A stretch of DNA of 64,000 bases, taken from NCBI RefSeq assembly GCF_900103665.1, contig NZ_FNGY01000007.1:434001-498000 (forward strand), given 5' to 3'. Position numbers and translations under genes: made by a program. The stretch comes from Pedobacter steynii (GTDB taxonomy: Bacteria > Bacteroidota > Bacteroidia > Sphingobacteriales > Sphingobacteriaceae). This document shows positions 19,471-34,473 of this stretch, one piece after another; positions within the stretch are counted from its first letter, which is position 1; each line of letters begins with the position of its first letter. Under the pieces are notes generated by a model. It saw only the letters and a program-made list of their open reading frames with translations. It was not told the DNA's origin and ran no database searches.

Positions 19471-19500
19471 TATGGTCTCTGACCGGTATCAACTGAAAAA

Positions 19501-19544
19501 GTGATACTCGTCATATTTATCTGAACCCGGAAGCCGGAACTTTG
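19501..19544 (+). promoter_or_regulatory. Fnr/FixK-type box and promoter of ccoI
   Basis: TGAT-ACTC-GTCA at 19502-19513 is preceded by GAAAAAG. A -7-like GAACTTTG lies at 19537-19544, 22 bases after the 14-base box, and no -33 element is visible. This places the box centre near -41, the class II activator position. It shares GAAAAAGTGAT with the box in front of the hemN operon. Confidence 0.6.
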
Positions 19545-19562
19545 GAGATATCGAATTTCCTT

Positions 19563-21962
19563 ATGTTAGCACAGAAAACCATAGCCCAGGAAACCCAATG
19601 TTACCATTGTGGTGACGACCTCCCAAAAAGCCCTTACACATTGGACGACAAGCCTTTTTGTTGTCTGGGATGCCAGGGCGTTTATCAGCTTTTATCAAGT
19701 CATGACCTTGGGAATTATTACGCTTACAACGATGTCCCCGGACAAACACAGAAGAATGGAGCACAACATTTTGAGTACCTGGATGAAGCAGACATTGCGG
19801 CCAATCTGCTGGATTATAGTGATGAAAAAATCAGTGTCATTACCTTATATATCCCTGCCATCCATTGCAGCTCCTGTATCTGGCTATTGGAACACCTCCA
19901 TAAAATAAAGCCGACTATTCTTCAATCCAGAATTGATTTCCTGAAAAAGCAGGTAGTAGTCACCTATAAGAATAAGGAATTGTCCTTGCGACAACTCGTA
20001 GAAACCTTATCCGCCATTGGCTATGAGCCCCTGATCAGCTTACAGGATGTGGTAAAAAAGCAGAAATCTGACCATTCTGAAAGGAACCTGATCACTAAAA
20101 TTGCGGTTGCGGGTTTCTGCTTTGGCAATGTCATGCTGCTCAGCTTCCCCGATTATTTCGGAATTACAAACCTGGATCAGGAGTTCAAATCCTTCTTCGG
20201 ATGGATGAACCTCGCTTTTTCCATTCCTGTGGTATTTTATAGTGGAAGAGATTACTTTATTTCGGCCTGGAACAATTTAAAAAACGGCATTTTAAACCTT
20301 GATTTCCCACTTGCTTTAGGGATTACGGTCATGTTTATCCGCTCTATTGTAGAAATCATCGGTAACACTGGAGCCGGTTTTGTAGATACGCTCTGCGGAC
20401 TGGTATTCTTCCTGCTCGTTGGGAAATGGATGCAGCAACATACTTACCACCACCTTTCCTTTGAAAGGGATTACCGTTCTTATTTCCCGGTTGCTGTAAC
20501 GCTGATAGAAAAAGGCGGAGAAAGACCCATTCCATTGAATGAGCTAAAGGTTGCCGACCGCATTCTGATCCGCAGCAATGAGATCATTCCGGCAGATGCC
20601 ATCTTATTAAAAGGAGATGCGGAAATGGATTTCAGCTTTGTAACCGGCGAATCCCTGCCGGTAAAAAAGGTTTTGGGAGAAGTGGTTTATGCTGGCGGCC
20701 GACAACTTTCCGGCGCCCTGGAACTGGAAGTCGTAAAGCCTGTTTCTCAAAGTTACCTCACCCAACTGTGGAACAATGAAGCCTTTTTTGGAGAGAAAAA
20801 CCGCATCAGAACCTTTAGCGACCGGGCGAGTAAATATTTCAGCATCGTATTGTTGAGTATTGCCCTCGGCGCTGCTGCCTTCTGGATGTTTAAAGGAGAT
20901 ACCGGAAAAGCAGTGGCTTCCTTTACTGCGGTTCTGATCATTGCCTGCCCCTGTGCATTGGCTTTAAGCTCTCCATTTACGCTTGCTGCTGTGCTGAGCA
21001 TTTTTGACAAGAATAAATTCTACCTGAAAAATACGGCTGTAATCGAAGAACTGGCTCGTATCAATACCTATGTATTTGATAAAACAGGAACCATCACCAA
21101 TCCCGATGTGAGTGGATTTACCTTTGAAGGCAGTATTACTGAAGAGGAGAAACAGCTGATCAATGATCTGGCCAGAAACTCCGGACATCCCCTGAGCAGG
21201 GAGCTGGTAAAATGGCTGAACAGGCCTGCAAAATATACCGTTGGAAAGTATATGGAAAAAGTCGGCCGCGGGATTACGGGAACAGTCAACGGCAATACCT
21301 TAAAACTGGGAAGCGCTTCTTTTCTGGGTTTGGAGGTCAAACAACCGGCGAAAGGTGCAGTCGTACATATTATTATTAATGAGCAATACCGGGGTTTCTT
21401 TTGCTCCGAACAGCAGTGGAGGTCAGGATTTAAAGAGCTGATCTTTAAGCTTGGTAAAGCCGCAGACCTTCACCTCCTTTCGGGTGATCAGGACCAGGAC
21501 AAACAGACCCTGATTCCCTTTTTCCCCCGCGCACAACAGATGCATTTTAAACAAAGTCCGCAAAATAAACTGGATTATATCGTTCAGCTTCAATCCTCCG
21601 GCAGGAAAGTGTTAATGTTTGGGGACGGCCTGAATGATGCCGGGGCTTTAAAGCAAAGCGATCTTGGTGTTGCGGTAACCGACAACATCAATAACTTCTC
21701 TCCGGGTTGTGATGCCATTCTGGACGGAGCGAGCTTCTATAAGATCCCGCAATTTATTCAACAGGCAAAAGATGCGGTAAAAGTGATTCACATGAGCTTT
21801 GCCATTTCCCTGACCTATAATGCCCTGGGGCTCTACTTTGCCGTTCAGGGGATGCTTTCTCCACTTATTGCAGCGGTGTTAATGCCGGTTAGTACCGTTA
21901 CCATCATTCTATTCACCAGCATTGCAGCCAGGCTGTACGCGAAGAAAAATCAATTGCTATGA
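19563..21962 (+). CDS. ccoI: Copper-translocating P1B-type ATPase of cbb3 oxidase assembly
   Basis: Membrane ATPase that moves copper for cbb3 oxidase maturation. The N-terminus has a Cys cluster (CYHCGDDL and FCCLGCQGVY) and an HMA-like domain with IHCSSCIWL. The membrane part has the CPC metal site (IIACPCALALSSPFTL). The cytoplasmic part has DKTGTITNPD (phosphorylated Asp), TGESLPVKK and GDGLNDAGAL. ATG 19563 is preferred over an in-frame TTG at 19542, because the TTG lies inside the predicted -7 element; this gives 799 residues. The gene overlaps ccoS by four bases. It is first in the cluster here, whereas many genomes place it after ccoP. Confidence 0.93.
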   Translation: MLAQKTIAQETQCYHCGDDLPKSPYTLDDKPFCCLGCQGVYQLLSSHDLGNYYAYNDVPGQTQKNGAQHFEYLDEADIAANLLDYSDEKISVITLYIPAIHCSSCIWLLEHLHKIKPTILQSRIDFLKKQVVVTYKNKELSLRQLVETLSAIGYEPLISLQDVVKKQKSDHSERNLITKIAVAGFCFGNVMLLSFPDYFGITNLDQEFKSFFGWMNLAFSIPVVFYSGRDYFISAWNNLKNGILNLDFPLALGITVMFIRSIVEIIGNTGAGFVDTLCGLVFFLLVGKWMQQHTYHHLSFERDYRSYFPVAVTLIEKGGERPIPLNELKVADRILIRSNEIIPADAILLKGDAEMDFSFVTGESLPVKKVLGEVVYAGGRQLSGALELEVVKPVSQSYLTQLWNNEAFFGEKNRIRTFSDRASKYFSIVLLSIALGAAAFWMFKGDTGKAVASFTAVLIIACPCALALSSPFTLAAVLSIFDKNKFYLKNTAVIEELARINTYVFDKTGTITNPDVSGFTFEGSITEEEKQLINDLARNSGHPLSRELVKWLNRPAKYTVGKYMEKVGRGITGTVNGNTLKLGSASFLGLEVKQPAKGAVVHIIINEQYRGFFCSEQQWRSGFKELIFKLGKAADLHLLSGDQDQDKQTLIPFFPRAQQMHFKQSPQNKLDYIVQLQSSGRKVLMFGDGLNDAGALKQSDLGVAVTDNINNFSPGCDAILDGASFYKIPQFIQQAKDAVKVIHMSFAISLTYNALGLYFAVQGMLSPLIAAVLMPVSTVTIILFTSIAARLYAKKNQLL

Positions 21963-22221: not shown

Positions 22222-24333
22222 ATGACTGATAAATTTTACTACGACAACAAGATCGTCAGGAACTTCGCAGTTGCCACCATCGTCTGGGGCATCATCGGAA
22301 TGACGGTCGGATTGCTCATCGCTATGCAGCTCTTCAAGCCTGCATTAAACATGGGCTCCCAGTACACGACTTTCGGCCGGATCAGGCCATTACACACCAA
22401 TGCGGTGATCTTTGCTTTTGTGGGTAACGCCATATTTATGGGTGTTTATTACTCCCTGCAGCGACTGCTTAAAGCGAGGATGTTCAGTGATGTACTCAGT
22501 AAAATACACTTCTGGGGATGGCAGCTGATCATTGTCTCGGCGGTGATTACCCTTCCTTTAGGATTCAGTTCCTCCCATGAATACGCAGAATTGGAATGGC
22601 CGATAGATATCGCCATTACTTTGATTTGGGTTGTCTTTGGGGTCAATATGTTTGGTACGATTATCAAAAGAAGAGAGAAACATATGTATGTGGCCATCTG
22701 GTTCTATATTGCCACATTTGTAACCGTTGCGGTATTGCATATCGTGAACTCTTTCCAGCTTCCGGTATCTGCTTTTAAAAGCTATTATTTATTTGCAGGG
22801 GTTCAGGATGCACTGGTACAATGGTGGTATGGTCACAATGCAGTGGCGTTCTTCCTGACCACACCTTACCTGGGAATGATGTATTATTTCCTTCCAAAAA
22901 TGGCACAGCGTCCGGTATACTCTTATAAACTGAGTATCCTTCACTTCTGGTCATTAATCTTTATCTATATCTGGGCTGGCCCACACCATTTATTATATAC
23001 GTCTTTACCAAGCTGGGCCCAATCGCTGGGTGTTGCTTTCTCGATCATGCTGATTGCACCAAGCTGGGGCGGTATGATCAACGGACTATTGACCCTTCGC
23101 GGTGCATGGGACAAGGTAAGAGAAGATTCGAGACTTAAATTTATGGTAGTCGGCATTACCGCTTATGGTATGGCTACGTTTGAAGGCCCAATGCTTGCCT
23201 TAAAACAGATCAATGCGATTGCTCACTATACCGACTGGATAGTAGCACACGTACACGTAGGTGCTTTAGGCTGGAATGGTTTCTTAACCTTCGGAATTTT
23301 ATACTGGTTGATTCCCCGCATTTACAGAACAGAATTATACTCTAAAAAACTGGTGTCCTTCCACTTCTGGATCGGAACACTGGGAATTATATTTTATGCA
23401 GTGCCTTTGTATTTCGCAGGTTTCACACAGGGATTGATGTGGAAAGAGTTCAATGCGGATGGAATGCTTAAGTATCCAAACTTCCTGGAAACAGTGATAC
23501 AAATCCTTCCAATGTATGTCTTGAGAGCGATCGGTGGTGCTTTATACCTTGCCGGAGTAATCGTGATGACTTACAACCTGATCAGAACAGTTCGTTTGGG
23601 GAAACTGGTGGCCAATGAGCCTGCTGAAGCGATGCCACTGGCGAAAGATTATGTTCCTCAGGGATCTGAGAAAAAATTACACCGCGTACTGGAACGTAAA
23701 CCAATGGTATTCATGGTGCTTTCCTTAGTGGTGATCCTGATTGGTGGAATGATCGAAATGATGCCCACTTTCACGATCAAATCCAATATCCCTACGATTG
23801 CCAGCGTGCAGCCTTATTCTCCTTTGGAGCTACAGGGACGTGATTTATACATCCGTGAAGGTTGTGTGAGCTGTCACTCTCAAATGATCCGTCCTTTCCG
23901 TTCAGAAACAGAAAGATATGGAGAATACAGTAAAGCGGGAGAGTTTGTATACGACCATCCACATTTATGGGGTTCTAAAAGAACCGGACCTGATTTACAG
24001 CGTGAGGGTGGTAAATATGGCAATGTATGGCATTACAACCACATGCTTGACCCACAGACAATGTCGCCTGGAAGTATCATGCCTCCTTACGAATGGCTGA
24101 TTACCCAGAAACTCGACACGACAACTACCATCAGCAAGATCAATGCGATGCGCAGTTTAGGTGTTCCTTATGAGGAAGGTTATGAGCATAAGGCCAACAG
24201 AGACCTGGACAAACAGGCAAAAGCCATTGCTGCAGACCTTCAGAAGAACAACATCAAAGTGAAAAGTGATAAAGAAATCGTTGCACTGATTGCCTATCTG
24301 CAACGTTTGGGAACAGATATTAAAGCGAAGTAA
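22222..24333 (+). CDS. ccoN: cbb3-type cytochrome c oxidase, fused CcoN-CcoO subunit
   Basis: Catalytic subunit of the high-affinity terminal oxidase, fused to its mono-haem cytochrome c subunit. Residues 1 to about 470 form the CcoN part, with twelve or so membrane helices. Haem and CuB His ligands are visible in RPLHTNAVIF, WYGHNAVAFF, AGPHHLLYT and VAHVHVGALGWNG. After a linker at about 470-500 and one membrane helix, the CcoO part begins. It has the haem c site REGCVSCHSQMIRPFRSE and a Met ligand candidate in PGSIMPPYEWL. The fusion of the two subunits into 703 residues occurs in other Bacteroidota. It starts a second unit after ccoS with its own upstream box. Confidence 0.95.
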   Translation: MTDKFYYDNKIVRNFAVATIVWGIIGMTVGLLIAMQLFKPALNMGSQYTTFGRIRPLHTNAVIFAFVGNAIFMGVYYSLQRLLKARMFSDVLSKIHFWGWQLIIVSAVITLPLGFSSSHEYAELEWPIDIAITLIWVVFGVNMFGTIIKRREKHMYVAIWFYIATFVTVAVLHIVNSFQLPVSAFKSYYLFAGVQDALVQWWYGHNAVAFFLTTPYLGMMYYFLPKMAQRPVYSYKLSILHFWSLIFIYIWAGPHHLLYTSLPSWAQSLGVAFSIMLIAPSWGGMINGLLTLRGAWDKVREDSRLKFMVVGITAYGMATFEGPMLALKQINAIAHYTDWIVAHVHVGALGWNGFLTFGILYWLIPRIYRTELYSKKLVSFHFWIGTLGIIFYAVPLYFAGFTQGLMWKEFNADGMLKYPNFLETVIQILPMYVLRAIGGALYLAGVIVMTYNLIRTVRLGKLVANEPAEAMPLAKDYVPQGSEKKLHRVLERKPMVFMVLSLVVILIGGMIEMMPTFTIKSNIPTIASVQPYSPLELQGRDLYIREGCVSCHSQMIRPFRSETERYGEYSKAGEFVYDHPHLWGSKRTGPDLQREGGKYGNVWHYNHMLDPQTMSPGSIMPPYEWLITQKLDTTTTISKINAMRSLGVPYEEGYEHKANRDLDKQAKAIAADLQKNNIKVKSDKEIVALIAYLQRLGTDIKAK

Positions 24334-24351
24334 AATCTAAACTACAACACC

Positions 24352-24516
24352 ATGTTTAAGCAATTTTTAAATCAAGTAGATGGAAGCCAGGTGTATTTAC
24401 TTACCTCTCTGGGGATTTTCATGCTCTTTTTCTTACTGGTCGGCATTCTCCTGCTGACCATGAAAAAAGACGAAATAAAATATATGAGTGAATTACCCTT
24501 AAAAGACGAGGAATAA
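24352..24516 (+). CDS. ccoQ: Small CcoQ-like membrane subunit
   Basis: A 54-residue protein translated from ATG 24352 to TAA 24516: MFKQFLNQVDGSQVYLLTSL, then one hydrophobic helix rich in Phe and Leu, and an acidic tail ending LKDEE. Size, single helix and position between ccoN and ccoP match CcoQ. Its stop overlaps the ccoP start (TAATG). CcoQ sequences are poorly conserved, so the name rests on position and topology. Confidence 0.8.
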   Translation: MFKQFLNQVDGSQVYLLTSLGIFMLFFLLVGILLLTMKKDEIKYMSELPLKDEE

Positions 24517-25310
24517 TGACAGCGCTACTTATCTGGGCCCTGCTATTTGTGGCAGTGCTCATCCTTATCGTTTCCTTACAGGTATTGAAAGTCATCAAAA
24601 TCTTTGTTAAGGAAAGTATCAGCCCTTCCCCATTTGCCACTGAAGAAGAGAAAGAACAATTCCGGTTACTGGCCGCACAGCGCGAAGCTGAGGAGCAGGC
24701 AAAACCATCGATCTGGACCAAACTCATGGGCTTAAAACCTATGGCGGAGGAGAAAGACCTGATGATGGACCATGAATTTGATGGCATCGCAGAATTGGAT
24801 AACCCTACCCCGGCCTGGTTTAGCGTATTGTTTTACGGAACCATCATTTTTGCCATCGGATATATGTTCAATTACCATGTGTTCAACTGGGGGAAATCAC
24901 AGGAAGAAGAATATGCGATAGAATTGCAGCAGGCCGCAGACGATCGCCTGGCTTTTCTTCAGAAACCAGGCTCCGCAGGCCCTCAGATCAATGAAAGCAA
25001 TGTAGCGCAAAGCAATGATAAAGAGGTGATCCAAAAAGGAGCGGCGCTATTTAAGACCGTTTGTACGCCTTGTCATGGGGCAAATGGAGAAGGTGGCGTT
25101 GGCCCTAACCTGACCGATGAATTCTGGCTACATGGGGGAGGCGTAAAAGATGTGTTCAAAACGATCAAATATGGTGTTCCTGAGAAAGGAATGGTGGCCT
25201 GGGAGAAATCCATGAATGCCAAACAAATCTCAGACATCACCAATTATGTGTTGTCATTAAAAGGAAGTAATCCTGCCGGCGCGAAAGCACCACAGGGCAA
25301 AAAAGATTAA
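24516..25310 (+). CDS. ccoP: cbb3 oxidase CcoP subunit with a single haem c site
   Basis: Electron-entry subunit. Two membrane helices are seen (about residues 3-25 and 100-120), the second preceded by IAELDNPTPAWFSVLFYGTI, the hallmark of the CcoP N-terminal domain. One cytochrome c domain follows with AALFKTVCTPCHGANGEGGVGPNLTD and a Met ligand in GVPEKGMVAW. Proteobacterial CcoP usually carries two CxxCH sites; only one is present here in 264 residues. The first helix and linker up to residue 100 may replace CcoQ-like contacts. It starts within the ccoQ stop codon and ends two bases before ccoG. Confidence 0.92.
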   Translation: MTALLIWALLFVAVLILIVSLQVLKVIKIFVKESISPSPFATEEEKEQFRLLAAQREAEEQAKPSIWTKLMGLKPMAEEKDLMMDHEFDGIAELDNPTPAWFSVLFYGTIIFAIGYMFNYHVFNWGKSQEEEYAIELQQAADDRLAFLQKPGSAGPQINESNVAQSNDKEVIQKGAALFKTVCTPCHGANGEGGVGPNLTDEFWLHGGGVKDVFKTIKYGVPEKGMVAWEKSMNAKQISDITNYVLSLKGSNPAGAKAPQGKKD

Positions 25311-25311
25311 T

Positions 25312-26712
25312 ATGTCGTCGCAAAGTCCCGGACAATTCAGAGATCAGATCTCCACCCTTACCGATGATGGTAAAAGCCGTAAATGGCTTTATCCTCATGT
25401 GATCAAGGGGAAATTATATCAATACCGCTCCATAGTCAGCTATTTTTTCCTGACTTTACTATTTGCTGCCCCGTTTCTAAAGTTAAATGGGGAGCAACTG
25501 GTCCTTTTAAATGTGCTGGAACGGAAATTTGTATTCTTTGGTGTCATCTTCTGGCCTCAGGATTTCTACCTCTTTGTATTGGCTTTGCTGATTTTCATAG
25601 TATTCATTGTGCTGTTTACCGTTGTCTTTGGACGGGTATTTTGCGGATGGGCATGCCCGCAGACGATCTTTCTGGAAATGATTTTCCGGAAGATAGAGAT
25701 CTGGATTGAGGGCGACCATAACAAACGTAAAAAGCTGGACGATGGTCCTTTGACCGGACAAAAGGTCTTTAAAAAAGGGTTGAAACATGGAATTTACCTG
25801 GCGATTTCTTTTCTGATTGCCAACATCTTCCTCTCCTACCTGATTGGTTCTTCCGTATTGATCAGCATCATGACAGAACCCGTCTCCATGCATTTAAGCG
25901 GTTTTATCGCCATCTGCGTATTTACCATCGTATTTTACCTCGTATTTTCCAGAATGCGGGAGCTGGTGTGTACGGTCGTTTGTCCTTACGGACGTCTGCA
26001 AGGCGTGTTACTGGACAACCAGAGCATCATCGTTGCCTATGATTACGAACGCGGGGAACCTCGCGGGAAGCGCGTTAAAGAAACAGAAAACCAAATCGGC
26101 GACTGTATCGATTGCAAGCTTTGCGTACAGGTTTGCCCTACCGGAATTGACATCAGGAATGGTACTCAGATGGAATGTGTGAACTGTACCGCCTGTATTG
26201 ATGCCTGCGATATGGTGATGGAGAAAATCAACCGTCCAACACGCCTGATCGGGTTTAAATCTGACGATGAGATCAAGTTCAAACAGGGTTTCCACCTCAA
26301 CAAAAGGGTGTATGCCTATACGGGTGTATTGTTTGCTTTAATGGCGGTACTGAGCTACCTTTTAATCGTCAGAAGTGATGTCAAAACTACGATTTTACGT
26401 GCAGGGGGCACACTTTACCAGATGCGGGAGCAAGAAAAGGAAGTCAGCAATTTATACAATGCAGAGCTGATCAATAAAACGAATAAATCATTGAAGTTTG
26501 AGATCATTCCGGATGATCCATCCACGAAAATCCAGTATATACAGAAACAGGATTCTATCGCCTATGGCGGTGTGGCAAAGCTGACTTTCTTTGTGATCAT
26601 GCCTCAGTCGGCTTTAAAGAAATACAAGTCAGACATCGGTTTCAAACTGGTATCGGATGGAAAGGTCTTAGACAGATTTGAAACTACATTTATAGCACCA
26701 ATAAACGATTAA
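25312..26712 (+). CDS. ccoG: Cytochrome oxidase accessory protein, polyferredoxin CcoG (FixG/RdxA)
   Basis: Membrane-bound iron-sulfur protein thought to reduce copper during cbb3 assembly. It has NapH-like elements FCGWACPQTIFLEMIFRKIE and LVCTVVCPYGRLQGVLLD. Two 4Fe-4S motifs follow, CIDCKLCVQVCPTGIDIRNG and MECVNCTACIDACD. The C-terminus (about residues 355-466) is an IG-like domain, as in FixG. The 466-residue length is normal. It is two bases after ccoP and five before ccoH. Confidence 0.95.
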   Translation: MSSQSPGQFRDQISTLTDDGKSRKWLYPHVIKGKLYQYRSIVSYFFLTLLFAAPFLKLNGEQLVLLNVLERKFVFFGVIFWPQDFYLFVLALLIFIVFIVLFTVVFGRVFCGWACPQTIFLEMIFRKIEIWIEGDHNKRKKLDDGPLTGQKVFKKGLKHGIYLAISFLIANIFLSYLIGSSVLISIMTEPVSMHLSGFIAICVFTIVFYLVFSRMRELVCTVVCPYGRLQGVLLDNQSIIVAYDYERGEPRGKRVKETENQIGDCIDCKLCVQVCPTGIDIRNGTQMECVNCTACIDACDMVMEKINRPTRLIGFKSDDEIKFKQGFHLNKRVYAYTGVLFALMAVLSYLLIVRSDVKTTILRAGGTLYQMREQEKEVSNLYNAELINKTNKSLKFEIIPDDPSTKIQYIQKQDSIAYGGVAKLTFFVIMPQSALKKYKSDIGFKLVSDGKVLDRFETTFIAPIND

Positions 26713-26716
26713 GCAT

Positions 26717-27148
26717 ATGGAATGGAACTGGGGAACAAAATTAGTGATTGGTATGGGCTCATTTATGACCTTCATTGTGGTACTGGCAGTGATGATGTTT
26801 AACAGCAAGCCTGATGCCCTTGTAGATAATGATTATTATGAGAAAGGGCTCAATTACAATGCAGATTACAACCTGAAGGAACAGGTCAAGGCAGACCATG
26901 CTGCACCGGAGATCCTTGTTTTACCCGGAGAAATTCTGCTTACGTTTAAAGCTGCTGCAGAGGGAAAAGTAAAAATCGTCCGTCCATCAGATAAACGCAT
27001 GGACAAGGTGGTTAATTTCAAAACAGATGTGGAATATAGATCAGTCATCCCTTCAAAAGAAATTGCTAAAGGAAGATGGAAACTGATCATTACATGGAAT
27101 AGTGCAGGTAAATCCTATTTGGATGAGCAGGAGGTCATGGTAAAATGA
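26717..27148 (+). CDS. ccoH: cbb3 assembly protein FixH/CcoH
   Basis: A 143-residue protein with one N-terminal membrane helix (about residues 8-28) and then DALVDNDYYEKGLNYNADYN, the conserved FixH signature. The rest is a beta-sandwich exposed to the periplasm. It acts in stable assembly of the oxidase together with CcoG and CcoI. It overlaps the next gene by four bases (ATGA). Confidence 0.9.
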   Translation: MEWNWGTKLVIGMGSFMTFIVVLAVMMFNSKPDALVDNDYYEKGLNYNADYNLKEQVKADHAAPEILVLPGEILLTFKAAAEGKVKIVRPSDKRMDKVVNFKTDVEYRSVIPSKEIAKGRWKLIITWNSAGKSYLDEQEVMVK

Positions 27149-27831
27149 GTACGGAAAGACTTGCTTTCATGATCGGACTGCTGGGGAGCGTACATTGCAT
27201 AGGTATGTGCGGTCCCCTTGCCTTCGCTGTGCCCTCCCTGAAACAGGGCTGGGCATTCCTGGTGTTGGACAAGCTGCTCTATCAATTGGGAAGGATTATT
27301 TCTTACTGTTTTCTGGGCCTGATGATTGGCCTGATCGGACAACAAATCTGGATGGCCGGTTTTCAACAAGGAGTTAGTATTTTCAGTGGCATATTGATTA
27401 TGATGGCTGCCTGTTCCAGGTTATTCAAATTCCAGGTCTTCAAAAACACGCCTTCCTTCTTTTTAAAGCCTTTTAACAAGGCCTTTAATTATGCCTTGAA
27501 GCATAAGGCCAACCACCTGATCATCGGGGTAATCAACGGATTTCTACCTTGTGGTTTTGTTTACCTGGCCATGGCAGGAGCGTTAAACACCGGAAATGTC
27601 AGCAGCTCCATGACCTATATGTTCTGGTTCGGCATGGGCACCCTGCCCCTGATGTTTATCGCAACACTAAGTATGGGATTTACAGGGGCACTGTTGCGCA
27701 GAAGGATCAACAAGGTGATTCCCTACTTTATGCTTTGCCTCGGAATCTGGTTTATTTTTAGGGGGCTGGAGTTAAACATCCCCTATCTGAGTCCGGCAGG
27801 AACGGAACAAGGGGTTGCAGAATGCCGGTAA
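27145..27831 (+). CDS. TauE/SafE-like (COG2836) membrane protein of the cbb3 cluster
   Basis: A 228-residue integral membrane protein with about six helices. The conserved first-helix motif GSVHCIGMCGPLAFAVP is typical of the COG2836 sulfite exporter TauE/SafE-like or UreH/DsbD-transmembrane-like family. The mid motif GVINGFLPCGFVYLAMAGAL repeats the Pro-Cys-Gly element. The Cys and His in these helices make metal or thiol handling plausible. The ccoH overlap shows it is part of the oxidase maturation operon. A direct role in copper supply is inference. Confidence 0.82.
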   Translation: MSTERLAFMIGLLGSVHCIGMCGPLAFAVPSLKQGWAFLVLDKLLYQLGRIISYCFLGLMIGLIGQQIWMAGFQQGVSIFSGILIMMAACSRLFKFQVFKNTPSFFLKPFNKAFNYALKHKANHLIIGVINGFLPCGFVYLAMAGALNTGNVSSSMTYMFWFGMGTLPLMFIATLSMGFTGALLRRRINKVIPYFMLCLGIWFIFRGLELNIPYLSPAGTEQGVAECR

Positions 27832-27863: not shown

Positions 27864-28247
27864 ATGAATATGAGAGATATAAAAGACAGTAATGACATCC
27901 GCTTATTGGTAGATGCTTTCTATAGCAATGCACTTATTGATCCGGTAATCGGCCCGGTATTTAAAGCGGCAGATTTCTCTTTGGAAAGACATATTCCGGT
28001 GATGGTTACCTTCTGGGAAACAATCTTATTAGATGTAGTGACCTATAAAGGAAATCCAATGTTAAAGCACATCGCCTTAAATAAGGAAGTGCCGCTGCAT
28101 CCGGAACACTTTGATCAATGGATGAAAATATGGACAGCTACCATCAGTGCTAATTTTGAAGGGCCTGTAGCAGAAAATGCCATCTCCAGAGCCTCTTCTA
28201 TCGGGCAACTGATGCAATATAAGATTAAACAAAGCAGCTCGCTTTAA
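27864..28247 (+). CDS. Truncated haemoglobin, group III
   Basis: A 127-residue globin. IRLLVDAFYSNALIDPVIGPVF and a TFWETILL motif resemble group III truncated haemoglobins. The proximal His candidate is in PLHPEHFDQWMKIWTATI. It may bind oxygen or detoxify nitric oxide close to the oxidase. It starts 32 bases after the TauE/SafE-like gene; ATG 27864 and in-frame ATG 27870 are both possible. A strong terminator overlaps its stop codon and ends the cluster. Confidence 0.88.
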   Translation: MNMRDIKDSNDIRLLVDAFYSNALIDPVIGPVFKAADFSLERHIPVMVTFWETILLDVVTYKGNPMLKHIALNKEVPLHPEHFDQWMKIWTATISANFEGPVAENAISRASSIGQLMQYKIKQSSSL

Positions 28248-28393: not shown

Positions 28394-29752
28394 CTAACCT
28401 GTAAGACTAAACAACTGTGTTGTAGGCTGATTTGCCCATAACCTCGCATCTAATGCCATACAGATATTCCTTAAAAACCTTTTACCTAATGGAGTTACCC
28501 TAAGGTTCTCCTCCGACAATAAGACAAGACCGTCCAATGCCAGCCAGCGCATGCGCTTTAATCCTTCGCTCAGTGCTGCAGATTGTTCTTCAGCCCTGCT
28601 CCAGGAAGTATATCCCCTGCACATGATGTTTAATATATGTTTGCGGATGACCAGGTCTTCTTCCGTCAGTAAATGCCCTTTAAATACAGGCAGTTCTCCT
28701 TCGTTTACGATCCTGATGTAATCCTCTACTTTTTTCACGTTTTGAGCAAAGGCAGACCACGTATCACTGATCGACGACACCCCTAATCCGACCATCAGGC
28801 GACTGTATTGATGGGTGTAACCCATAAAGTTCCGGTGCAGATTCCCTTTGATCTCCGCGCCATATAAACTGTCTGTGGCCAGTGTAAAATGGTCCATACC
28901 GACATCGATATAACCTCCATCTTTTAGCTTTTTACGCCCCAGTTCATAGAGTTCCTGCTTCATTTTTGGAGAAGGCAGATCGGCTTCTGTATAACGTCTT
29001 TGTCCGGGTTTTACCCAGGGCACATGCGCATAACTGTAAAAAGCGATGCGGTCTGGTCTTAATTTTACAACGGCATCAAGGGTATCAGACAGACCTGCCG
29101 GATTTTGCTTTGGCAAGCCATAAATAAGGTCGTAATTGATCGAGGTATAGCCCGACTCCCTGGCTTTAAGGGTCACCTCTTCTACCTGTTCATAGCTTTG
29201 GATCCTGTTGATGATCAGCTGTACTGTAGGATCAAAATCCTGAATTCCAAGACTCAACCTTCTGAATCCAAGTTTATTTAAAGTGCTCAGGTGTTCGGGA
29301 TTGGTATTTCCGGGATGGGCTTCAAAACTAAATTCTGCATCCTCATGAAGGTCTGCATATTGTAGAATCCCTTCAATCAGGATCTGTAGATTTTCGGCGC
29401 TGAAGAATGTTGGCGTGCCACCACCAAGGTGTAATTCCTTGATTTTTGGCCTGCTGACAAACAAGTTCAGGTATAATTGCCACTCTTTTAGCACAGCGGC
29501 GATATAAGGTTCTTCCACCTGATGGTTCTTTGTGATCCTGGTATTGCAACCGCAATAGGTACAGAGGCTCTCACAAAAAGGAAGGTGGATGTATACGCTG
29601 ATCCCGTCTGAATCATTGCTTTCTTTAAAGGATTGTGCTACGGCCTTAGCCCAGTTTTCCGCATTAAAATCAGTCAGGTTCCAATAAGGAACCGTAGGAT
29701 AACTGGTATAACGTGGCGCAGCAACATGGTATTTTGAAACGATGCTCTCCAT
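28394..29752 (-). CDS. hemN: Oxygen-independent coproporphyrinogen III dehydrogenase
   Basis: Radical SAM enzyme that decarboxylates coproporphyrinogen III without oxygen in haem synthesis. IHLPFCESLCTYCGCNTRIT holds the CxxxCxxC cluster motif plus the fourth Cys typical of HemN. LHLGGGTPTFFSAENL and YDLIYGLPKQ are further family motifs. The start is taken at ATG 29752 (MESIVSKYHVAAPRYTSYPT), which matches the HemN N-terminus. Longer in-frame extensions would run into the upstream gene. The enzyme has 452 residues. It follows the Cys-tailed half-LDH gene by one base and is predicted to be induced with it at low oxygen, when the oxygen-dependent enzyme fails. Confidence 0.95.
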   Translation of the reverse strand: MESIVSKYHVAAPRYTSYPTVPYWNLTDFNAENWAKAVAQSFKESNDSDGISVYIHLPFCESLCTYCGCNTRITKNHQVEEPYIAAVLKEWQLYLNLFVSRPKIKELHLGGGTPTFFSAENLQILIEGILQYADLHEDAEFSFEAHPGNTNPEHLSTLNKLGFRRLSLGIQDFDPTVQLIINRIQSYEQVEEVTLKARESGYTSINYDLIYGLPKQNPAGLSDTLDAVVKLRPDRIAFYSYAHVPWVKPGQRRYTEADLPSPKMKQELYELGRKKLKDGGYIDVGMDHFTLATDSLYGAEIKGNLHRNFMGYTHQYSRLMVGLGVSSISDTWSAFAQNVKKVEDYIRIVNEGELPVFKGHLLTEEDLVIRKHILNIMCRGYTSWSRAEEQSAALSEGLKRMRWLALDGLVLLSEENLRVTPLGKRFLRNICMALDARLWANQPTTQLFSLTG

Positions 29753-29753
29753 A

Positions 29754-30227
29754 TTAATGCTGATGAGGTTGTCCTTTGATGTGTACTTTGCTTCCCGCCT
29801 GATCACATGCCTTTGAACAGACACAGGCATCGCCGAGGCAACGGTTTTGCTGCCAGTTATCCAGGTTGATGATCGTTTCCGCGGCCAGAGCCATTGGCAA
29901 TTCCTTCTCGGTAAGGCCGGATAAGGAAGCCAATGGAACATTGGCGATCTTAAGGCTTCTCAAACCTGCAGCTTCGGTGTCGATATGTGTCGTATCGGTA
30001 GAGCGTGTAGCAATGAATTTCACGCCAAGATCTGCCAGCTTATTGATCACCAAGGCAGAAACGTTGTCCTCTTCATTGAAAACGATCACCGCTTCTTTAC
30101 CTTCGGCATAAGCTGCTGTTTCCAGGCTCAGCGAATTGGAGATCAGCGTGATCTCATGTTTTTTATTGTTGGCAATGGCCAGCGGTTCTTTTTCAAAAGA
30201 TTTTATACTATATGCGACAACTCTCAT
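29754..30227 (-). CDS. D-lactate-dehydrogenase-like N-terminal half with Cys-rich tail
   Basis: A 157-residue protein. Residues 1-105 resemble the start of D-lactate dehydrogenases: MRVVAYSIKSFEKEPL, LSLETAAYAEGKEAVIVF and LADLGVKFIATRSTDTTHID. The Rossmann NAD-binding domain is absent, so dehydrogenase activity is not expected. The tail from about 125 contains RCLGDACVCSKACDQ, a C-x4-C-x-C-x3-C cluster, and it ends in a His-containing segment (GQPHQH). The stop lies one base from the hemN start. An Fnr-type box precedes it. It could carry a metal or iron-sulfur centre for haem synthesis or sensing; the function is unknown. Confidence 0.8.
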   Translation of the reverse strand: MRVVAYSIKSFEKEPLAIANNKKHEITLISNSLSLETAAYAEGKEAVIVFNEEDNVSALVINKLADLGVKFIATRSTDTTHIDTEAAGLRSLKIANVPLASLSGLTEKELPMALAAETIINLDNWQQNRCLGDACVCSKACDQAGSKVHIKGQPHQH

Positions 30228-30248: not shown

Positions 30249-30314
30249 CAAAGTTAGCATGAAGGCATGGCGGGGAGAATGAGTTCGGTCAGCCGAAAAA
30301 GTGATCTTCGTCAG
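30249..30314 (-). promoter_or_regulatory. Fnr/FixK-type box and promoter of the hemN operon
   Basis: On the plus strand TGAT-CTTC-GTCA occupies 30302-30313 with GAAAAAG beside it. The -7 element TAACTTTG reads on the minus strand at 30256-30249, leaving 44 bases between box and -7. No -33 element is visible, which fits activator dependence at a class I position near -62. The box overlaps the stop codon of the regulator gene. Confidence 0.65.
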
Positions 30315-31369
30315 TTTTTCATTTGCTGCAGCCGAACCTGATCCAGGATAACGATCTGACTTCCTTTTCTTTCAATAATTCCTTCATCTTTGAAGTCGCT
30401 CAGGATCCGGCTTACCGTTTCTGTGGCCATTCCTGCCATCGCAGCAAGGTTATCCCTGGAAATGCGCAGGGTCAGCTCCGTTCCCTCCTGTTCCTGTTTG
30501 CAAAGCCTGGCCAATACTTCCGCCATGCGTTTTCTAACTGAATGATAGGCCAATTGCAGCAATTGTTCTTCTTTTTCCTGAAGGTTATTGGAGAGGATTT
30601 CTATAAACTGTCTCGCTACATCCGGGTAACGGTGGAGTAAATCTTCCATCAGATCCTTTGGCAGCATGCAAACCGTACTGTCTTCCATCGCCTCTGCTGT
30701 TTCCGTGTAAGGGGCATTGAGCAATAAAGATGTGATTCCAAAGTATTCTTCATGGCCATACATACCGGTTAGCAATTCTCTTCCATCTTCGCTCAGCTTA
30801 AAGGTTTTCACCTTCCCCTGCATCACGAGATAAACGCCGGAAACATTGTCGCCCTCGTAATAAACGATTTGTTTTTTCTTAATCGCCCTGACTTTCCGTG
30901 CGGCAATTATTTTCTCCAGCTCCTGCAAACCTGAAGTATTGCTAAACAAAGCGCTTAGTTTTTCCAGCGACTGGCTATAGAAATGTTGTTGTTTCTCTTT
31001 TTTACTGAGCCTGCTTTCTATCGCATTCATCAGTTCTACATCATCGAAAGGTTTCGTGAGGTAGTCATCTGCTCCCATTTCCATGCCTTTACGCATGTCC
31101 AGACGTTCAGCCTTGGCCGTCAGAAAGATAAACGGAGTAGCGGCAGTCTTTTCATTTTTATTGAGCAAATACAATACACCATAGCCATCCAGCTCCGGCA
31201 TCATGATGTCACATAAGATCAGGTCCGGCAGGTGCGTCCCCGCGAGCTCGACGCCTATCCGGCCATTGCTGGCCTGCAATACTTCATAATTGGCAAGCTC
31301 CAGAATTTCTGCAGTACTTTCCCTGATGTCGTCGTTATCTTCTATAATGAGTATCTGTATCTTCTTCAT
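30311..31369 (-). CDS. Response regulator with receiver and Crp/Fnr domains (FixJ-FixK-like fusion)
   Basis: A 352-residue regulator. Residues 1-120 form a receiver domain with phospho-acceptor Asp54 (LILCDIMMPELDG), Thr84 and Lys106 (LTKPFDD). Residues of about 150-265 form a cyclic-nucleotide-binding-like domain (YEGDNVSGVYLVMQGKVKTF). The C-terminus has a Crp/Fnr helix-turn-helix: ISRDNLAAMAGMATETVSRIL, with the E-T-V-S-R pattern of Fnr. It has no N-terminal Fnr-type Cys cluster, so oxygen sensing is expected from the partner kinase. The start is ATG 31369 (MKKIQILIIEDND), 13 bases after the kinase stop. It probably binds TGAY-N4-RTCA boxes. Confidence 0.9.
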   Translation of the reverse strand: MKKIQILIIEDNDDIRESTAEILELANYEVLQASNGRIGVELAGTHLPDLILCDIMMPELDGYGVLYLLNKNEKTAATPFIFLTAKAERLDMRKGMEMGADDYLTKPFDDVELMNAIESRLSKKEKQQHFYSQSLEKLSALFSNTSGLQELEKIIAARKVRAIKKKQIVYYEGDNVSGVYLVMQGKVKTFKLSEDGRELLTGMYGHEEYFGITSLLLNAPYTETAEAMEDSTVCMLPKDLMEDLLHRYPDVARQFIEILSNNLQEKEEQLLQLAYHSVRKRMAEVLARLCKQEQEGTELTLRISRDNLAAMAGMATETVSRILSDFKDEGIIERKGSQIVILDQVRLQQMKN

Positions 31370-31382
31370 TTGTATTGAATGG

Positions 31383-32567
31383 TTATTTGTGGAAGGACAG
31401 GACAAATTTAGTCCCGGTATGAATGCTGCTTTCAAAATATAAATCCCCCTTCATTAAGGAGGCATAACGGTGAACAATGTTTAAGCCCAGACCTGTTCCT
31501 GGAATGTTACCGGTATTGTGGGCACGGAAAAAGGGTTGAAACAAGTACTTATGGTCTGATTCCGGAATCCCGATCCCATTGTCTTTGATCGTCACGATAC
31601 ATTGCTGATCGTTGATTTCCGTATTAAATTCTATGAAAGTATTTTCTCCTGAATATTTGATGGCATTGGAGATCAGGTTGATCATGCAATTTTTCAAGAG
31701 GTTTGGATCAAGCAGCACCATGCTTTGCAGTCCGGTATGCTGGTAAATGATGTTCTGGTCCTGTTTGGCAATCATCTGCATTTCTTCCGTAATCTCTTCC
31801 GCAAGTTTCACGAGGTCAAAAGCGGTAAATGTCGGTTCTACCCTTCCTGCTTCCAGACGTTCCAGAGACAGGAAATCATTCAGGATAGTGGTTAGGTTTC
31901 CTACTGCGTTTTTGATCTTGCTGACATGCTTTCTGATATTGGTATTGTCGTAAGGCTCTGCATATTTATCGATCAGTGAAGCTGAAAGTTGTACCGAGCT
32001 CAGCGGTGTTCTGAATTCATGAGAAGCCATAGATACAAACCTGCTTTTCAATTGATTGAGTTCTTTCTCTTTTTCTAAAGAAAGACTTACTTCTTCTTTT
32101 GCCTCACTTAAAGCTTTTACTGTTTTTTTAAGGGATTTTGTCCGTTCTTCTACCAGTTCTTCCAGCTCTGCAGCATATTCCCGCAAGCGCTCTTCTGCTT
32201 CTTTCTCCCTGGACAGGTCATGTATAAATCCGGTATAAATGATCCGATCATCGTATTGAACCTCACTTACAGCCAGTCTGAAAGGAAAAGTAGAACCGTC
32301 TTTCCTCAATCCTTTTACCTCTCTCCCCTTGCCGATGATCCGTTTTTCTCCGGTGGTCTGGTATCTGGAAATATAGCCGTCATGTCCGCTTCTATCTGGT
32401 TCAGGCATTAAAACAGAAATGTTTTTTCCTTCCACCTCTTCCAGTGCATAACCAAATAACCTCAATGCTGCCGGATTAAGGCTCTCTATCCTGCCCCGGT
32501 TATCGATGGTAATGATCCCATCAATTGCCGTTTCAATGATCGCCTTAAGTAACCTCGCCTTTTCCAT
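31383..32567 (-). CDS. fixL: FixL-like haem-PAS oxygen-sensing histidine kinase
   Basis: A soluble 394-residue kinase. The PAS domain (about residues 5-120) closely follows FixL: LMPEPDRSGHDGYISRY with His62 at the haem ligand position, TGEKRIIGKGREVKG with Arg82 at the haem-propionate/oxygen Arg position, and RKDGSTFPFRLAV, YTGFIHDLS. A coiled coil (about 118-170) leads to HisKA with His183 in MASHEFRTPLSS. The ATPase domain has NLISNAIKY, DNGIGIP and GTGLGLNIV. No membrane segment is present. It is followed by the receiver-Crp regulator. In rhizobial FixL, oxygen bound to haem blocks the kinase, so this pair should switch on at low oxygen. That last step is inferred. Confidence 0.9.
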   Translation of the reverse strand: MEKARLLKAIIETAIDGIITIDNRGRIESLNPAALRLFGYALEEVEGKNISVLMPEPDRSGHDGYISRYQTTGEKRIIGKGREVKGLRKDGSTFPFRLAVSEVQYDDRIIYTGFIHDLSREKEAEERLREYAAELEELVEERTKSLKKTVKALSEAKEEVSLSLEKEKELNQLKSRFVSMASHEFRTPLSSVQLSASLIDKYAEPYDNTNIRKHVSKIKNAVGNLTTILNDFLSLERLEAGRVEPTFTAFDLVKLAEEITEEMQMIAKQDQNIIYQHTGLQSMVLLDPNLLKNCMINLISNAIKYSGENTFIEFNTEINDQQCIVTIKDNGIGIPESDHKYLFQPFFRAHNTGNIPGTGLGLNIVHRYASLMKGDLYFESSIHTGTKFVLSFHK

Positions 32568-32580
32568 GTTTTACTTTTTA

Positions 32581-32677
32581 CAAATATAGTCAATACGATT
32601 GCAGGAGCCAGATAACCTAAATCATGCAAAAGTGTGACTAATATCATGTTTTTAAAATTAAATAGTCTGTTCTTTTG
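32581..32677. promoter_or_regulatory. Divergent promoter region with one shared Fnr/FixK-type box
   Basis: TGAC-TAAT-ATCA lies at 32635-32646 after an A-tract. On the minus strand TATATTTG (32588-32581) is a good -7 for fixL, 45 bases from the 14-base box. On the plus strand TTCTTTTG (32670-32677) is a -7-like element for the 589-residue gene, 22 bases from the box. One activator could therefore serve both directions, class I for fixL (autoregulation) and class II for the other gene. Confidence 0.6.
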
Positions 32678-32703: not shown

Positions 32704-34473
32704 ATGAACCATACTTTTCACATTCCGGTACTAGGCTTAGGCTATTCGATTGACACTCCTTTAAAAGTAGCCAGATACGGCATCTCTTCCGTTGTCTCCA
32801 TTGTGGATGATGAACTGACGGAGCGCATGAGAAAGTACCATCAGGAAAATACGACAAAAGGATATACCTTAATTGAGAAAAAAGAGGAAGACAGCAGGGC
32901 GAGGAGGATTACCGCCTACCTGAACCTTTTGGATACGCTGGTTAAGGAGCAGTTTGCTGCATTAAAAATGCAAAGCTTTGAAGAAGGAACGGAGCTGTCC
33001 CGATACTTTGAGCTTTTGCCGGATACTTCTCCAATGAAACAAAAGTATGCACAAATGAAGGCTTCAGGAACGGGAATGTCCGGAGAGGCTGTACGGAAAG
33101 AACTACTGGCGTCGATGATTCCGGGAGCCATAGATGTCAACATCATGTCTAAAGTAGACAAAGCCAATTATAAGGCCAACAATGAATATGCCGGTGATAA
33201 CTTTACTGATGCCCTGGCTGCCATGCGTGGTTTTGCCAATAGTACACTGGAATCCTCTGTGATTATTTCCGCAGGTCTAAACCCGAGATTGTATGCTTAT
33301 ATGGAAAAATGTACTGCCTTTTTCCCGGATACTGAGGGGAAACTACAAAAGAAAATCATCCTTAAAGTGAGCGATTTCCGTTCGGCGATGATACAGGCAA
33401 AGATGCTGGCTAAAAAAGGTTTATGGGTTTCCGAATTCCGCGTAGAATCGGGTTTGAACTGCGGAGGCCATGCTTTTGCTACAGAAGGTTTCTTATTGGG
33501 GCCTATCCTGGAAGAATTCAAACAGAAGCGGGCTGAGCTTTCGGAAGAACTGTATCAGATGTATGCTGCGGCGCTGAACAGTAAGGAGTTCCCGGAAATG
33601 GAAAAACCAGTACAACGCATTACTGCACAGGGAGGTATCGGCACGGCCGAAGAACATGCGTTCCTGCTCAATTATTATCAGCTGGATGCCGCCGGTTGGG
33701 GAAGTCCGTTTTTGCTGGTTCCTGAAGCGACAAATGTGGACGAAGAAACCTTAAATGACCTTGTTACTGCAAGGGCTGATGATTATTACCTGAGCAACTC
33801 TTCCCCATTGGGCGTACTTTTCAATAATTTCAAAAAAAGCACTGCAGAGCAACAAAGACTGCAACGCATAGAAAAAGGACGGCCAGGAAGTCCATGCACA
33901 AAGAAGTTTCTATGTACCAATACCGAATTTACAGAACTGCCGATCTGTACGGCATCAAGAGCATATCAAAACCTAAAGATAAAACAGCTGAAAGATCAGC
34001 AACTGCCCAAAGCAGATTACCAAAAACAGTTTGATTCCATTACGGAGAAAGTATGTCTGTGTGAAGGTTTATGTGCTTCCACCTATATTAAAGCAGGGAT
34101 ATTAAAGCCAAGAGAAAACAGGGCGGTGAGCATCTGCCCGGGTCCAAATCTGGCTTTCTTTCATGCCAAATACTCCCTTAAGGAGATGATCAATCATATT
34201 TATGGAAGAGAAAACTTACTTTCAGGGGTCCTGCGTCCCAACCTGTTCATCAATGAACTAAACTTATATGTGGACTATCTGAAGAAAGACATTGCTACTC
34301 ATTTAGAGGAGTTTAATACCAAAAAAGACAAGTACTTCAGCAAGTTTAAAGCGCAGTTATTGAACGGGATCGACTATTACAGAGCACTTATTCCCGAATT
34401 AACATTCCAGGACAGCTTATCTGTGGAAGAAATGCTCAAACAACTCAACCTCGCAGAGCAACGCTTAAGCTAA
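32704..34473 (+). CDS. Cys-rich protein of unknown function next to fixL
   Basis: I do not recognise a characterised family. The 589-residue protein is cytoplasmic, without signal peptide or membrane helix. The N-terminus VLGLGYSIDTPLKVARYGIS and later RVESGLNCGGHAFATEGFLLGP resemble flavin-binding TIM-barrel enzymes only loosely. Cysteines concentrate in the C-terminal third: GSPCTKKFLC, LPICTAS, KVCLCEGLCASTY and VSICPGPN. This suggests an iron-sulfur or zinc centre. It is divergent from fixL and shares its predicted low-oxygen box, so it is probably an anaerobic or microaerobic enzyme. A loose stem (TAAGCCAG/CTGGCTTA, 34491-34550) lies after the stop. Confidence 0.75.
   Translation: MNHTFHIPVLGLGYSIDTPLKVARYGISSVVSIVDDELTERMRKYHQENTTKGYTLIEKKEEDSRARRITAYLNLLDTLVKEQFAALKMQSFEEGTELSRYFELLPDTSPMKQKYAQMKASGTGMSGEAVRKELLASMIPGAIDVNIMSKVDKANYKANNEYAGDNFTDALAAMRGFANSTLESSVIISAGLNPRLYAYMEKCTAFFPDTEGKLQKKIILKVSDFRSAMIQAKMLAKKGLWVSEFRVESGLNCGGHAFATEGFLLGPILEEFKQKRAELSEELYQMYAAALNSKEFPEMEKPVQRITAQGGIGTAEEHAFLLNYYQLDAAGWGSPFLLVPEATNVDEETLNDLVTARADDYYLSNSSPLGVLFNNFKKSTAEQQRLQRIEKGRPGSPCTKKFLCTNTEFTELPICTASRAYQNLKIKQLKDQQLPKADYQKQFDSITEKVCLCEGLCASTYIKAGILKPRENRAVSICPGPNLAFFHAKYSLKEMINHIYGRENLLSGVLRPNLFINELNLYVDYLKKDIATHLEEFNTKKDKYFSKFKAQLLNGIDYYRALIPELTFQDSLSVEEMLKQLNLAEQRLS

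Follow-up and report, generated by a model that had tools for sequence, protein, structure and literature searches.

A haem-type PAS kinase and receiver-Crp/Fnr regulator at the cbb3 oxidase locus of Pedobacter steynii: a probable oxygen relay at Fnr-like operators

We analysed a 64,000-nucleotide stretch of the Pedobacter steynii genome (contig NZ_FNGY01000007.1, positions 434,001 to 498,000; hereafter the window, from a host genome of 8.06 Mb), focusing on a gene pair at 30311-32567 that encodes a FixL-like sensor kinase with a haem-type PAS domain and a regulator in which a receiver is fused to a Crp/Fnr DNA-binding module. This pair is likely to work as a two-protein relay that controls the cbb3 oxidase regulon in response to oxygen and that took over Fnr operators. 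Sequence comparison reveals the architecture of both proteins, the haem-pocket residues of the kinase, the conserved pairing of the genes, a conserved operator-like box and a complementary pattern of linkage to the oxidase genes. For the class as a whole (Bacteroidia), we consider it somewhat probable that a single operator persisted at the cbb3 promoter and that an iron-sulfur Fnr and a haem-kinase-driven receiver-Fnr replaced each other several times as its reader, an exchange enabled by one ancestral receiver capture.

A kinase with FixL-type haem-pocket residues

Both genes lie on the minus strand, with 13 bp between the kinase gene and the regulator gene, inside a cbb3/hemN cluster comprising genes for a P-type ATPase, fused ccoN-ccoO, ccoP, ccoG, fixH, a DsbD_2 protein and hemN. 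Their features are as follows.

31383..32567, minus: FixL-like sensor histidine kinase, 394 aa (domain and structure matches)
32217..32549, minus: haem-type PAS domain, residues 7-117, with His62/Arg68/Arg82 (alignment to FixL)
31392..32048, minus: HisKA and HATPase_c kinase core, H-box His183 (Pfam domains)
30311..31369, minus: receiver-Crp/Fnr fusion regulator, 352 aa (domain matches, structure model)
31016..31354, minus: receiver domain of the regulator, Asp54 (domain match, alignment)
30626..30889, minus: domain of the regulator with the cyclic-nucleotide-binding (cNMP) fold (domain match)
30320..30529, minus: Crp-type helix-turn-helix (HTH) of the regulator, recognition helix E317-T-V-S-R321 (domain match, alignment)

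Domain analysis of the kinase revealed PAS (7-117), HisKA (174-241) and HATPase (287-392) in that order (Pfam). The solved structures closest to the PAS domain are those of FixL (8js5 and 1dp6, E ~6e-33), with DosP next (2e-16), and the domain is identical to BjFixL at 56/112 positions and to SmFixL at 61/112 (50-54%), the two FixLs sharing 66/112 with each other. His62, Arg68 and Arg82 align with the residues that we take to be H200, R206 and R220 of BjFixL, and equivalents of the FixL pocket positions Ile215, Leu236 and Ile/Val238 are also present. Judged on residues, the domain therefore carries the proximal His and pocket Arg that place it with the haem PAS domains of FixL. A first-pass annotation of the window had claimed the haem-ligand His62 and the haem-contact Arg82 and proposed comparison with FixL structures; both residues and the structural affinity hold up. 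Among the genome's 26 other PF00989 stretches (of 27), many of which aligned partly and two of which gave no match, none has His in the haem column.

The kinase half resembles HK853/WalK/YycG-type kinases, and His183 of its H box is invariant in 22 aligned kinases. The top two NCBIfam models, HK_scytonemin and then FixL, both fell well short of their cut-offs; the full-length FixL equivalog (NF041777) gave 175 bits against a cut-off of 850. The structure model (predicted local distance difference test, pLDDT, 78; predicted template modelling score, pTM, 0.46) matches sensor kinases in Foldseek; because of this pTM and the large root-mean-square deviations of full-length matches, we used the kinase-core matches alone.

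A regulator that joins a receiver to an Fnr-like reader

The regulator, whose closest named relatives are in Pedobacter sp. KBW06 (99%) and P. caeni (97%), likely starts at the ATG at 31369 (352 aa); the longest open reading frame (ORF) starts with TTG at 31435. Pfam recognises Response_reg (6-118), cNMP_binding (161-248) and HTH_Crp_2 (281-350), and the acceptor Asp54 is present, in agreement with the first-pass claim of a receiver joined to a Crp/Fnr module. The order receiver, cNMP fold, Crp HTH, together with the acceptor Asp, is that of receiver-Crp response regulators. In the structure model (pLDDT 83, pTM 0.53), Crp/Fnr matches extend over ~200 residues with a template modelling score of ~0.8 by target (Foldseek).

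Cysteines occur only at positions 53, 234 and 290, so that, as first proposed, the iron-sulfur cluster set of Fnr is absent; the NCBIfam Fnr model scores 101.3 bits against 228. The CRP model likewise falls short (79.9 bits against 266), and the cAMP ligand residues were judged absent by eye only. The Caulobacter FixK model is the second NCBIfam match of the regulator. The absence of cluster Cys fits FixK; the score, 92.5 bits, is below the cut-off of 300, and a receiver is attached. A FixJ would combine a FixJ-like receiver with a LuxR-type HTH, whereas the output here is a Crp-type HTH; the best receiver matches are of PhoB/VanR/PleD types, with no FixJ among the matches listed.

Conservation of the pair across Bacteroidota

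To survey the pair, we compiled 110 loci: 80 kept of 259 confirmed relatives, plus 30 loci from a phylum sample. An adjacent kinase is present in 108, most of them from close relatives of the window; of the remaining two, L035 is a contig starting at the regulator and L107 has none. The 108 adjacent kinases keep the PAS His in 107 cases, the Arg220 equivalent in 103 and the Arg206 equivalent in 65.

The phylum sample comprised 395 Bacteroidota genomes, 60 of which match the regulator at E<=1e-40. Four of these matches were receiver-only and were dropped, leaving 56 genomes, all of the same class as the window or nearer, with 61 distinct receiver-Crp genes (62 loci, one gene occurring twice). 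A search of Bacteroidota for the same gene pair had been suggested with the first-pass annotation, and it succeeded: a kinase gene lies next to 54/61 receiver-Crp genes on the same strand, and 49/54 of these kinases keep the PAS His in at least one PAS stretch. In 21 genomes the receiver-Crp gene is linked to ccoNO (within 15 kb); 16 of them have the adjacent kinase, and all 16 keep the PAS His.

Alignment of the 61 receiver-Crp proteins revealed Asp11, Asp54, Pro107, Glu317 and Arg321 in all of them. The first-pass reading of an Fnr-type E-T-V-S-R recognition helix thus stands at Glu317 and Arg321; its Ser, tried as a family signature, was rejected, since residue 320 is Ser in 17/61 and Ile in 41/61.

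Cys234 is kept in 10/61 proteins. Cys53, directly before the phospho-acceptor, is found in 61/61, and its position beside Asp54 could possibly provide a redox input.

An Fnr-like box before the oxidase genes

We searched 100 upstream regions of the kinase gene for all 4+4 and 5+5 palindromes with spacers of 0-10, using a base-shuffled control. The top palindromes were TGAT-N4-ATCA (27 versus 0.6 shuffled) and TGAC-N4-GTCA (18 versus 0.0). Across 80 loci, the combined pattern TGAY-N4-RTCA reaches 2.65/kb in non-ORF DNA compared with 0.10/kb in coding DNA. The first-pass prediction of Fnr-like boxes is therefore borne out in that an Fnr-like operator precedes the oxidase genes. The classical TTGA-N6-TCAA form was rejected (1 in the window versus 2.56 expected; 1/90 ccoNO promoters). 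Boxes found by pattern search, and the genes predicted as their targets, are listed here.

32635..32646, no strand: box TGAC-TAAT-ATCA, between the kinase gene and the divergent orf589
30302..30313, no strand: box upstream of the short 2-hydroxyacid-dehydrogenase-like gene, overlapping the regulator's stop codon
22126..22137, no strand: box upstream of ccoNO, at -96
19480..19491, no strand: box 1 of a tandem pair (spacing 22 bp) ahead of the P-type ATPase gene
19502..19513, no strand: box 2 of the tandem upstream of the P-type ATPase gene
19542..21962, plus: P-type metal ATPase (E1-E2 ATPase, HMA), predicted target; longest ORF, called fixI/ccoI from context
22222..24333, plus: fused ccoN-ccoO, cbb3 oxidase, predicted target
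29754..30227, minus: short protein like the N-terminus of 2-hydroxyacid dehydrogenases, predicted target

The box is upstream of the short 2-hydroxyacid-dehydrogenase-like gene in 64/67 cases, of orf589 in 39/43 and of the kinase gene in 52/79, compared with 9/79 for the regulator gene, 109/377 for other genes, and 0 to 2 of 36-53 each for ccoP, ccoG, fixH, the DsbD_2 gene and hemN. Close box pairs are spaced 22 bp apart in 28/73. Genome-wide, the tandem occurs at four places (none in a reversed-pattern control), preceding the P-type ATPase gene, a UspA gene, an acetyl-CoA hydrolase/DUF1801 pair and a gene of unknown function. The single box with AT-rich flanks occurs 25 times forward and 15 reverse, versus 5 and 3 in the reversed control.

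Two further box positions in the window's genome were recorded. One lies between a cytochrome c gene and a divergent gene for a 424-aa protein without a Pfam match (L351); the other (L359) precedes another Crp/Fnr gene, L211, and suggests cross-regulation of Crp/Fnr proteins.

One operator, two proposed readers at the ccoNO promoter

The sample contains ccoNO in 259/395 genomes, and we read 90 ccoNO promoters: the 30 best matches plus 60 that we chose to contrast regulators within families. A box lies within 500 bp of ccoNO in 59/63 genomes of the window's class and in 1/27 outside it (these 27 represent six families). With any other spacer from 1 to 9 the count is at most 7/63, and with the reversed control 2/63. 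Grouped by regulator, 37/39 genomes with receiver-Crp have the box, compared with 23/51 without.

In 24 same-class genomes without receiver-Crp, the closest Crp homologue is a stand-alone protein of ~230 aa, which we name Fnr-1. Its C7, C10, C56 and C109 are invariant in 13/13 aligned proteins from genomes lacking receiver-Crp and are predicted to be of the cluster type. The box stands at ccoNO in all three states: 27/29 genomes with receiver-Crp and no Fnr-1, 10/10 with both, and 22/24 with Fnr-1 only. The box as a receiver-Crp-specific site was accordingly rejected, and its sharing by Fnr-1 genomes raised the hypothesis that the reader was exchanged.

The distribution of the two regulators follows a complementary pattern. 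Fnr-1 was called by score against an Fnr-1 alignment (gap 269 versus 227 bits) and is present in 43/84 same-class ccoNO genomes, 26/33 without receiver-Crp and 17/51 with it (Fisher 5e-5, not phylogeny-corrected). For the 71/84 genomes with known ccoNO positions, receiver-Crp is linked to ccoNO in 21/33 lacking Fnr-1 and in 0/13 that carry it (Fisher 5e-5); linkage of Fnr-1 is seen in 12/13 with receiver-Crp and 21/25 without (33/38 together). Families f2, f4 and f8 each contain both states, and genus g9 has the linked pair in two species and linked Fnr-1 in one.

Seven family-f3 genomes (G012, G095, G265, G277, G281, G308, G331) were considered as carrying neither regulator; this was rejected, as they have a Crp at 218-227 bits against the Fnr-1 alignment, ~3 kb from one ccoNO copy. 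With G210, whose f3 member L263 has neither CxxC nor receiver, the box stands at the Crp-linked ccoNO copy in 7/8 genomes versus 2/7 at the other copy.

The base before TGA is G in 0/66 half-sites of Fnr-1-bearing genomes versus 18/74 in receiver-Crp-only genomes. Its covariation with residue 320 is suggestive only, being confounded by phylogeny and G+C content.

Origin of the receiver-Crp family

To elucidate the history of the fusion, we built a tree of 120 Crp domains, free of rhizobial FixK, FixJ and FixL and with an arbitrary root. All 61 receiver-Crp rows fall on one side of a branch (100/100), and their sisters are two stand-alone CxxC proteins (99/94) from f9 genomes that also carry receiver-Crp. 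A weakly supported deep fork (62/45) divides the Fnr-1 rows, and several rows have long branches. The Crp half of the regulator falls among Bacteroidota Fnr-like proteins, and one receiver capture with loss of the cluster cysteines would be the simplest reading.

Because the Crp half is sister to CxxC proteins, the receiver is PhoB/VanR/PleD-like and the kinase half HK853/WalK/YycG-like, the route looks like receiver gain and cluster loss by an Fnr, a putative functional parallel to FixL-FixJ-FixK. The first-pass annotation had seen FixJ and FixK collapsed into one protein; neither the placement of the Crp half nor the receiver, with FixJ missing among its listed matches, bears this out, and transfer from rhizobia appears disfavoured.

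Other features of the locus

The remaining genes around the pair are as follows.

24516..25310, plus: ccoP
25312..26712, plus: ccoG
26717..27148, plus: fixH
27145..27831, plus: DsbD_2-type cytochrome biogenesis protein
28394..29941, minus: hemN, longest ORF; true start probably further in
32704..34473, plus: orf589, without family match, divergent from the kinase gene

The short protein at 29754-30227 (minus), present in 70/80 named loci, resembles the N-terminus of 2-hydroxyacid dehydrogenases, stands alone and has a Cys-rich tail. orf589 (32704-34473, plus) has no Pfam or NCBIfam match and is present in 43/80 named loci. A 127-aa protein at 27864-28247 (plus), between the oxidase genes and hemN, has no Pfam or NCBIfam match either and resembles a truncated globin.

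Proposed relay and alternative explanations

At low oxygen, the deoxy-haem PAS kinase would autophosphorylate and transfer its phosphoryl group to the receiver-Crp protein at Asp54. The phosphorylated protein would then dimerise on TGAY-N4-RTCA boxes and activate ccoNO and the P-type ATPase gene along with its own operon and a few redox genes. Haem and oxygen binding, phosphotransfer, the positive sign of control and the identity of the box-binding protein are predicted steps of this relay. The receiver-Crp protein would have a single origin within the window's class, in an Fnr-like protein that acquired a receiver while its iron-sulfur cysteines disappeared; several families would use it at the same operators in place of the four-cysteine Fnr encoded beside ccoNO.

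Several observations weigh against this relay and the exchange. On the kinase side, 5/54 adjacent kinases lack the PAS His (G335, G107, G182, G198, G371), the losses in G198 and G371 affecting one of two copies each and none of the five copies being linked to ccoNO. Haem is less sure in divergent kinases because the haem-type His also occurs in a broader PAS family. Seven of the 61 receiver-Crp genes have no adjacent same-strand kinase, five of them among the 21 linked to ccoNO; the seven include receiver-Crp genes divergent from fixI-ccoNO with no adjacent kinase (G391, G253, G300; loci L328, L330, L331). Moreover, in 5/56 receiver-Crp genomes nothing matches ccoNO at E<=1e-100. Other palindromes are also enriched: TGAA-N8-TTCA (18 versus 0.8) and GTGA-N6-TCAC (15 versus 0.4) before the kinase gene, and ACAA-N5-TTGT before ccoNO in 25/63 of the class versus 4/27 outside. 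Since 16/25 single-box places lie inside ORFs, the single box alone is a poor target predictor, and since 22/24 Fnr-1 genomes without receiver-Crp have the box, it does not by itself identify its reader. The counts ignore phylogeny, and the 90 promoters were partly hand-chosen. Status as Fnr-1-lacking rests on a score gap of 269 versus 227 bits and lower; two such genomes (G166, G072) carry a CxxC-bearing relative elsewhere, and in 12/33 the pair lies >15 kb from ccoNO or on another contig. For Fnr-1 from the 17 receiver-Crp genomes, strict motif searches recovered CxxC 16 times, the third Cys 14 times and the fourth 13 times.

The window's genome has other Crp/Fnr proteins, and two are possible competitors: L210, with iron-sulfur-like Cys, and L211, with a box at its own promoter. 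If either of them read the boxes, the pair would be a mere neighbour or target, and the box in Fnr-1 genomes without receiver-Crp would fit such a reader. We regard this as unlikely. In 14 receiver-Crp genomes the receiver-Crp protein is the sole Crp/Fnr match at E<=1e-20 (weaker matches possible), and 9/10 of those with a tested ccoNO promoter keep the box; furthermore, across the 71 genomes with known positions, linkage of receiver-Crp to ccoNO is confined to those without Fnr-1.

Haem PAS domains are able to respond to gases besides oxygen, and the variation among kinases at Arg206 (65/108 Arg), less at Arg220 (103/108 Arg), leaves some room for a PAS domain that binds another cofactor or ligand (nitric oxide, carbon monoxide, redox haem or no haem), with the pair sensing a signal other than oxygen. 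The window's kinase agrees with FixL at the His, at both Arg and at the Ile/Leu/Val pocket positions, however, and the genes around the pair are cbb3 and hemN, which makes this improbable. We assign the lowest probability to a true collapse of the rhizobial cascade, in which transfer brought in fixL, fixJ and fixK and a fusion joined FixJ to FixK. The window's PAS domain stands almost as near to FixL as one FixL to another, and Caulobacter FixK ranks second in NCBIfam for the regulator; yet FixJ is absent among the receiver's listed matches, the FixL and FixK equivalog scores are far under their cut-offs, and the Crp half has Bacteroidota proteins with CxxC as its sisters, in a tree without rhizobial sequences.

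Relation to known oxygen-sensing systems

Receiver-Crp response regulators with the domain order found here are reportedly included in Galperin's domain surveys of 2006 and 2010. In the open literature, as covered by titles and abstract openings, we found no FixL-type kinase with a receiver-Crp regulator in Bacteroidota.

Compared with FixL-FixJ-FixK of Bradyrhizobium and Sinorhizobium, the proposed relay shares a haem-PAS kinase and an output at Fnr-like boxes before cbb3 genes, but its receiver sits on the Fnr-type reader itself, one step fewer. According to excerpts of PMC7888657 and PMC4999443, FixL acts via FixJ on fixK in rhizobia (PMC7888657), FixJ inducing fixK, whose product binds the box (both sources), given as TTGAT-N4-ATCAA (PMC7888657). 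The hFixL-FxkR-FixK system of Rhizobium is likewise a FixL relay variant ending at the anaerobox, although its receiver protein FxkR, as described in an excerpt of PMC7888657, still works through fixK transcription.

Fnr and FnrN share the Crp fold, the E-x-x-x-R recognition helix, the palindromic box with an N4 spacer and cbb3 targets; the receiver-Crp protein differs in being without the cluster Cys set, and sensing would reside in the kinase. A related replacement is proposed in part of PMC4999443 for Caulobacterales, where FixLJ-FixK would have taken over the sites of a lost FnrN, a haem two-component relay thus inheriting Fnr-type sites. There a fixLJK cluster would have been transferred, whereas in the window's class, in another phylum, a receiver would have been joined to an Fnr-like reader.

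If the proposed relay is true, it would give these Bacteroidota an oxygen-sensing circuit with a defined operator and a predicted regulon. Direct iron-sulfur sensing and remote haem sensing seem to replace one another at the same promoters, which would open two questions: in what way the chemistry of the sensor fixes the oxygen threshold, and by what means phosphorylation takes the place of cluster-driven dimerisation in an Fnr-type protein.

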